Source: Glutamicibacter soli (lineage in GTDB: Bacteria; Actinomycetota; Actinomycetes; Actinomycetales; Micrococcaceae). From it: a DNA stretch of 64,000 bases. The notes beneath the pieces were generated by a model. The model searched no databases. It was given only the letters and a program-made list of their open reading frames with translations, and had not been told where the DNA came from. Where the stretch lies: NCBI RefSeq assembly GCF_003309065.1, contig NZ_POAF01000002.1:1-64000 (forward strand), written 5' to 3'. Each line of letters begins with the position of its first letter. The stretch's first letter is position 1. Made by a program: the position numbers and the translations under genes. Below, in pieces: positions 27,767 to 29,594 of the stretch.

Positions 27767-28447
27767 TTACTTCATCTTCTGGCGGGCTTCGCCGCCGGCA
27801 GGCTCGAAGCCTGCGGCCTTGGCAGCCTCGATGGAGTTGAACCAAACTTCAGCGTCAGTCTGCTCGTACCAAGTCGAGCCCGGTACGTGGTACTTGTTGG
27901 AGCCTGCATTGCCCTTGATGATGAAGCCCTCTGGGACCTCAGCACCTTCAACTACCTTGAAGACGCCGTTTGCTTGCGTAGCCTCTGCGGCTGGGGCCTT
28001 TGCGGCCTCTGGAGCAGCGGCAGCAGCCTTAGCAGCAGCCTTTGGGGCTGCAGCGGCTACTACCTTAGGCGCTTTTGGGGCGTTGACGTCAGCCGGCAGG
28101 GCACCCTTTGCTACCTGAACCAGAGTGGCGAATGCGTTGGAGTCCGAGACAGCCAGCTCGGCAAGCATGCGGCGGTCAACCTCGATCTCAGCGGCCTTCA
28201 GGCCCTGGATCAGACGGTTGTAGGTCAGACCGTTGGCGCGGGATGCAGCGTTGATGCGCTGGATCCACAGGCGGCGGAAGTCACCCTTGCGCTTGCGACG
28301 GTCGTTGAAGCTGTAAACGAACGAGTGGAGCAGCTGCTCCTTGGCCTTGCGGTACAGGCGCGAACGCTGACCGCGGTAGCCCTTGGCGCGTTCCATTACG
28401 ACGCGACGCTTCTTGTGGGCGTTTACTGCCCGCTTCACACGTGCCAC
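27767..28447 (-). CDS. rplT: Ribosomal protein L20 with an Ala-rich linker and extra C-terminal module
   Basis: 226 residues, against about 118-130 for most L20. Residues 1-118 are standard L20 ([15 protein letters not shown] start, [19 protein letters not shown] core). Residues 122-160 are an Ala/Pro/Lys-rich linker. Residues about 163-216 form a small module with [18 protein letters not shown] and [16 protein letters not shown], resembling the short sunset-type motif found at the ends of unrelated proteins. GTG start with GAAGGAG upstream. L20 is needed for 50S assembly and often represses its own operon. No frameshift or stop separates the module from L20. Confidence 0.93.
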
Positions 28448-28546: not shown

Positions 28547-28741
28547 TCAGAGGCCCAGCATCCGCTTGATGGTCTTCACATCAGCCTTTGCGACCAGCTG
28601 GTCAGAAGCCAGGCGACGGGTCAGTCGCGAGGACTTGTGCTCCAGGTAGTGACGGCGGTTAGCCTGCTGGCGGACGAGCTTACCGCTGCCGGTAACCTTG
28701 AAGCGCTTCTTGGCGCCACTGTGAGTCTTGAACTTCGGCAT
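28547..28741 (-). CDS. rpmI: Ribosomal protein L35
   Basis: 64 residues from the ATG at 28741, with AAGGAG upstream. The sequence opens with [17 protein letters not shown] and is highly basic, as expected for L35. An upstream in-frame extension to 28768 is not used by the family. It lies between infC and rplT in the conserved translation operon. Confidence 0.96.
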
Positions 28742-28910: not shown

Positions 28911-29594
28911 CTAGGCGTCGCCTTCAGCTGCTTGGCGTGCCTGCTCCAGCTTGGCGCGAGATTCCTCGTCCATCGCTGCTGCGACATTCTGGCCTTCGGT
29001 CTCGGCTGGAGCGTCGGTGCGGATCTTGCGCTTGGCCGAATCACGGCCACCCGACTTCTGCTGCTGTTCGCGGCGAGCCTCGGCCTTGTTCTTCAGCGGA
29101 CCTACAACCATGACCATGTTTCGGCCATCGATGCGCGGGCTGGATTCAATGACGCCAACCTCGGCGACATCCGCTGCAAACTTCTCCAGCAGGCGGATAC
29201 CCATCTCGGGACGCTGCTGTTCACGACCACGGAACTGGATCATGGCCTTGACCTTGTCACCGGCGCCCAGGAAGCGCAGTGCGTGGCCGACCTTGGTCTG
29301 GTAGTCGTGGGTGTCAATCTTCAGGCGGAAGCGAACTTCCTTCAGGACCGTATTGGTCTGGTTCTTGCGAGCTTCGCGAGCCTTGACAGCGGCTTCGTAC
29401 TTGTACTTGCCGAAGTCCATCAGTTTGCACACTGGAGGCTTGGCGTTGGGTGCCACCTCGACCAAGTCCAGATCGGACTCGTGAGCCAGTCGAAGCGCGT
29501 CCTCGATGCGGACGATGCCTACCTGCTCACCATTGGGGCCGACGAGACGTACCTCTGGCACGCGAATGCGCTCATTAATGCGTGGATCGCTGAT
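28911..29594 (-). CDS. infC: Translation initiation factor IF-3 with ATC start codon
   Basis: 227 residues if translation begins at ATC (29592-29594). Starting there gives [17 protein letters not shown], the conserved N terminus of IF-3, whereas the first ordinary start (GTG, 29561) removes the conserved RINERIR. AGGAG lies exactly six bases before ATC. IF-3 is known to start at rare AUU/AUC codons in other bacteria, which lets the protein repress its own synthesis. The N domain (about 1-75), linker and C domain (about 90-175) are intact, and an acidic/Gln-rich actinobacterial tail follows. First gene of infC-rpmI-rplT. Confidence 0.93.

Follow-up and report, generated by a model that had tools for sequence, protein, structure and literature searches.

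Genes of the locus and architecture of the L20 protein

The window analysed here (positions 1 to 64,000 of contig NZ_POAF01000002.1 from Glutamicibacter soli, 64 kb) carries infC, rpmI and rplT in this order, which is the usual one for bL20 (Table 1). The rplT gene starts with GTG and runs through 226 codons without interruption, confirming the original prediction of a single fused frame for L20 and a long tail. Family profile scans matched the L20 core above both curated cut-offs (TIGR01032, residues 1-114; PF00453, residues 3-109) and the C-terminal part by the sunset model NF051437 (71.1 bits, cut-off 27). The whole protein, residues 1-226, aligned to positions 1-219 of the 219-position model NF051450, "50S_L20_sunset" (score in Table 1, cut-off 375). 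The proposed sunset-type module on a linker was thereby identified as such, and both strings quoted for it earlier ([16 protein letters not shown]; [13 protein letters not shown]) occur in the protein. The accompanying statement that L20 normally ends near residue 120 had to be corrected, as family members without the module mostly reach about residue 129-131, and in some of them an Ala/Lys-rich tail follows.

The same fused frame scores above the NF051450 cut-off in 47 of the 149 Micrococcaceae genomes sampled, among them all 8 from the genus, the G. soli genome being one of these, which makes a frameshift or joined-reads artefact very unlikely. One further genome, G574 (L206, G574:C291; a 350-contig draft), has L20 and the sunset segment in different frames, possibly by sequencing error or decay, and was left out of the 47 carriers. 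No ribosomal leader RNA was detected in the 64-kb window at the Rfam gathering thresholds.

The infC start is apparently ATC at 29592-29594 (minus strand), in the context …AGGAG-tgacac-ATC AGC GAT CCA CGC. A TGA in the same frame lies two codons upstream, and the ORF lists give only a later GTG. A rare infC start codon is known in other bacteria.

Table 1. Features of the infC-rpmI-rplT locus, in window positions
Feature	Position	Strand	Evidence or remark
rplT, bL20 sunset-domain variant, 226 aa	27767..28447	minus	Stop included; NF051450, 424.6 bits
bL20 core, residues 1-118	28094..28447	minus	TIGR01032 and PF00453; genus dN/dS 0.08
Ala/Pro/Lys-rich linker, residues 119-160	27968..28093	minus	Length, dN/dS, pLDDT
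C-terminal module with entry segment, residues 161-226	27770..27967	minus	dN/dS; AlphaFold
Sunset domain proper, residues 177-218	27794..27919	minus	NF051437, 71-74 bits, cut-off 27
rpmI (bL35), same operon as rplT	28547..28741	minus	TIGR00001, 85.5 bits
infC (IF3), probable ATC start	28911..29594	minus	TIGR00168, 218.7 bits

Selection and predicted fold of the tail

The module is under purifying selection and the linker is not. Across the 8 genus members the linker had a pooled dN/dS of 0.39, against 0.08 in the core and 0.11 in the module; the family values were 0.44, 0.10 and 0.21, respectively (42 rows from 41 genomes, G474 being used twice, of the 47 available). In these 42 rows of relatives the linker varies between 25 and 54 residues and the module between 61 and 66. 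Mean identity of the linker is 0.48, and H27, Y34, T37, E40 and W42 (module numbering) are among the conserved residues of the module. The AlphaFold model of full-length L20, with a low mean pLDDT of 66.4, gave values <50 for linker residues 122-159 and about 72-80 for the module, and the module modelled by itself reached a mean of 81.5. Behind its L20 core and a disordered linker, the protein carries a sunset domain of the cytosolic type that folds on its own and is maintained by selection.

The flexible protrusion of the tail, proposed earlier, is supported by these pLDDT values and by the one solved ribosome with a sunset domain, that of C. acnes, whose uL4 tail has no density and is called likely disordered (PMC10085706). 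A tail invisible by cryo-EM is what is expected for a flexible tether without its partner. This L4 (8crx and others) was the one sunset chain from the PDB among 10 structures or names checked; a PDB match to the mitochondrial ATP synthase delta chain (E 0.21) was weak and was taken as chance.

Two states of the sunset domain

An alignment of 71 sunset domains (A1) revealed two states and no intermediates. Both Cys columns are filled in 25 rows, whose proteins, thermonucleases among them, begin like secreted proteins with a signal peptide or like lipoproteins (recognised by eye); the remaining 46 rows have neither Cys, and have Trp (44) or Tyr (2) at the second column. The secreted-type domains are basic (+2.0 to +4.0), while the mean net charge of the cytosolic type is -3.7 on L20, -6.0 on L17, -1.9 on L4 and -4.4 on the non-Cys "other" proteins, with the four NuoE rows near neutral (-0.2). 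Domains on membrane anchors are acidic as well. A Cys pair with basic charge on apparently secreted proteins and Trp/Tyr with acidic charge on apparently cytosolic ones are strictly separate states, and the acidic character of the latter is in keeping with cytosolic binding of proteins, not of nucleic acids. The domain ends close to the stop codon on L20, L17 and L4 (median distance 9-13 residues).

By the sunset model, the G. soli genome encodes only L20 and one secreted-type protein with this domain. The latter (L031, G000:C23:171336-171473) has the Cys pair, begins like a signal peptide and carries its domain, which ends in RASKR, at the C-terminus. A single-sequence search gave a third hit, which was weak (E 0.518) and belongs to a different protein. 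Tethering of one cytosolic sunset protein to another within a cell is thus not general. In phages, a sunset-like stretch was found only in gp605 of Bacillus phage G (48.8% identity, E 1e-3).

Remote relation to the Ada zinc-binding domain

The module of this L20 matched no Pfam family at E<=1 or <=5. A Foldseek search with the module placed N-Ada (1u8b, 1wpk) first but weakly (E 2.8; Z 3.7 and 3.4, ranks 1 and 2 by Z), followed mainly by p53-type matches taken as chance. Profile-profile comparison of sunset with four Ada-type segments gave a probability of 98%, a value not fully independent because the segments were chosen via their match to the sunset model; two of the four were scanned, and both scored above the Pfam Ada cut-off. 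PF02805 (Ada_Zn_binding) itself matched 14 of the 71 sunset rows weakly (best E 0.0012), the best row scoring 19.3 bits, below the cut-off of 23.

The Ada ligand positions C16 and C44 (alignment A2) correspond to S31 and A57 in this module, and C47 falls on E60 if the alignment is extended. In all 71 rows the Ada cysteine ligands are absent: the 46 cytosolic-type rows have no Cys, and both Cys of the other 25 stand elsewhere. The profile probability, beside the weak fold matches, suggests that the sunset domain is a remote, probably metal-free relative of Ada_Zn_binding; it is not a member, lacking the conserved cysteines of that family and, in this module, any Pfam match.

Carriers of the domain in Actinobacteria and beyond

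The sunset model matched 85 of 297 genomes in the order sample and none of the proteins of the other 212. Carriers were classified for 83 of the 85, leaving out two genomes with partial matches (G424 and G466): L17 in 31, L4 in 14, L20 in 8, L17 with L4 in 8, L17 with L4 and S16 in 2, L17 with S16 in 1, and only other proteins in 19. A single ribosomal protein bears the domain in 53 of the 64 genomes with any ribosomal carrier, and two or three do so in 11/64, so that one per ribosome is not a rule. The class sample (50 of 296 genomes with a match, carriers taken from the loci returned with the search) added two S2 carriers, and the phylum sample (21/198) two L22 carriers and one L20 carrier outside the class. 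The domain is dispensable, because 42 of the 149 family genomes and the 212 order genomes are without a match.

In Actinobacteria, the cytosolic-type domain lies near the tail ends of L4, L17, L20, L22, S2, S16, the complex I subunits NuoE and NuoC, and membrane-anchored proteins. One NuoE carrier (L205) was confirmed by NCBIfam with 384 bits, the others being assigned by motif, and the NuoC carrier (L200) matched its family with 99.3 bits, under the model cut-off of 122. No carrier-specific sunset model scored above its cut-off in the scans of L22 (2/2: L005, L006), S16 (two of L059, L079 and L098), NuoE and NuoC. In the membrane-anchored carriers a single hydrophobic segment at the N-terminus precedes basic residues, suggesting that their domain should face the cytosol. 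One of these carriers, an ArfC protein (L257:1159-1905, 273.8 bits), has two tandem sunset domains. On a Tsukamurella plasmid (NZ_LR134464.1, 210512-210646) the annotated rplQ (L17) ends in a sunset-like stretch. Thermonucleases, an endonuclease/exonuclease/phosphatase-family protein and a DNA/RNA non-specific endonuclease bear the domain outside Actinobacteria and in its secreted forms.

Exchange of carriers

L20 carriers (47) and L17 carriers (29) do not overlap among the 149 family genomes. Counted by genus, the L20 form occurs in 12/32 and the L17 form in 6/32, with overlap 0 (hypergeometric 0.043, relatedness ignored); with relatedness considered, this exclusion is weak. L4 and L17 replace each other as carriers in Brachybacterium, where the 38 genomes comprise 27 with the L4 form and 8 with the L17 form: 4 with both, 23 with L4 only, 4 with L17 only and 7 with neither. 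Of these 7, two are without any L4 match and a third (G631) has a sunset piece beside L17; four of the 38, at 99% completeness, have neither the L4 nor the L17 form.

On the domain tree (171 rows) the carrier has to change 21 times, the minimum being 7. The tree has few columns and little resolution, leaving 87 of its 162 inner branches open, and its starred branches force only 2 changes for L20 and 3 each for L17 and L4. That carriers were exchanged is well supported; the number of exchanges is not.

Discussion

NCBIfam already lists the L20-sunset architecture (NF051450, 50S ribosomal protein L20, sunset domain variant), which is ordinary as a domain-fusion finding; we found no difference in whole architecture, and the protein described here is a plain member. 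The sunset variants of L17 (NF051448), L4 (NF051449), S2 (NF051451) and ArfC (NF051433) share the C-terminal domain behind a linker and differ in being carriers other than L20. C. acnes uL4 likewise has a ribosomal protein tail ending in a sunset domain, with the difference that the carrier is uL4 and that its tail is reported without density (PMC10085706). Our analysis adds the remote Ada kinship, the two-state domain, the carrier set, which L22, S16, NuoE and NuoC widen beyond the carriers named by NCBIfam, and the carrier exchange. No paper on the function of the L20 sunset tail or the sunset domain was found in the literature searched (sunset domain, L20 C-terminal extension in actinobacteria, ArfC/Rv0901).

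We suggest, at about even confidence, that the module is a protein-docking domain derived from an Ada-like zinc domain by loss of the metal site, of which one per ribosome would matter and the bearer protein would be exchangeable. The linker would hold the sunset domain off the 50S subunit on its solvent side, from where the domain could bind a single shared partner in the cytosol, or a domain of its own kind, and thereby bring ribosomes to a factor or a factor to ribosomes. One module per ribosome, and not its site, would count, and carriers could have been exchanged among L20, L17, L4 and others during evolution. Because the module persists through changes of carrier, selection probably acts on its being on the ribosome. 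It is also found at the ends of complex I subunits and membrane anchors, for which a shared putative partner is the simplest link. That Actinobacteria have a single interchangeable docking domain, a metal-free Ada descendant on ribosomal, complex I and single-pass anchor tails with a common partner, is a wider and more tentative proposal that we regard as somewhat doubtful.

L20 is an early assembly protein and autorepressor in other bacteria, and the module is kept within L20; the tail could accordingly be a structural or regulatory part of L20 that aids 50S assembly, subunit stability or autoregulation. We consider this unlikely: an L20-specific role leaves unexplained the same module on L17, L4, L22, S2, S16 and non-ribosomal proteins, no Rfam leader was detected in the window at gathering thresholds, and the tail of C. 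acnes uL4 is reported to lack density on the ribosome (PMC10085706). The presence of the module on other ribosomal proteins of related genomes argues against L20-specific assembly or autoregulation and for a tether-like role. A stability or turnover tag, either a folded cap against C-terminal proteases or a handle for an adaptor, would fit the position of the domain, which in ribosomal carriers is always near the C-terminus of long, disordered and otherwise exposed tails; many sister genomes, however, do without it and leave their L20 or L17 tails bare, and the sequence appears to be conserved beyond the needs of a cap, so that a tag is likewise unlikely.

Retention of an ancestral Ada-like nucleic-acid role, with binding to mRNA, rRNA or nucleoid DNA, would agree with the remote relation to Ada_Zn_binding and with the nucleases that bear the domain outside Actinobacteria and in secreted forms. 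It is an improbable reading of the cytosolic domains, which are acidic where the secreted ones are basic, and the Ada cysteine ligands are missing from every aligned row. The carrier changes on the domain tree, and the Ala/Lys/Glu-rich tails of carriers without the module, could also reflect a nearly neutral mobile C-terminal segment spread by recombination in low-complexity tails, but the purifying selection on the module (dN/dS 0.11-0.21) disfavours this and the tail is kept in all 8 sampled genomes of the genus, and we regard it as very improbable.

The role of the sunset domain is of interest since neither the literature searched nor the solved structures say what it does. The natural exchange of L20, L17 and L4 would, with interchangeable carriers, provide a ready genetic test of carrier independence. 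If the carrier is interchangeable, as the docking-domain reading proposes, many actinobacterial ribosomes would bear a general-purpose handle that E. coli ribosomes are without.
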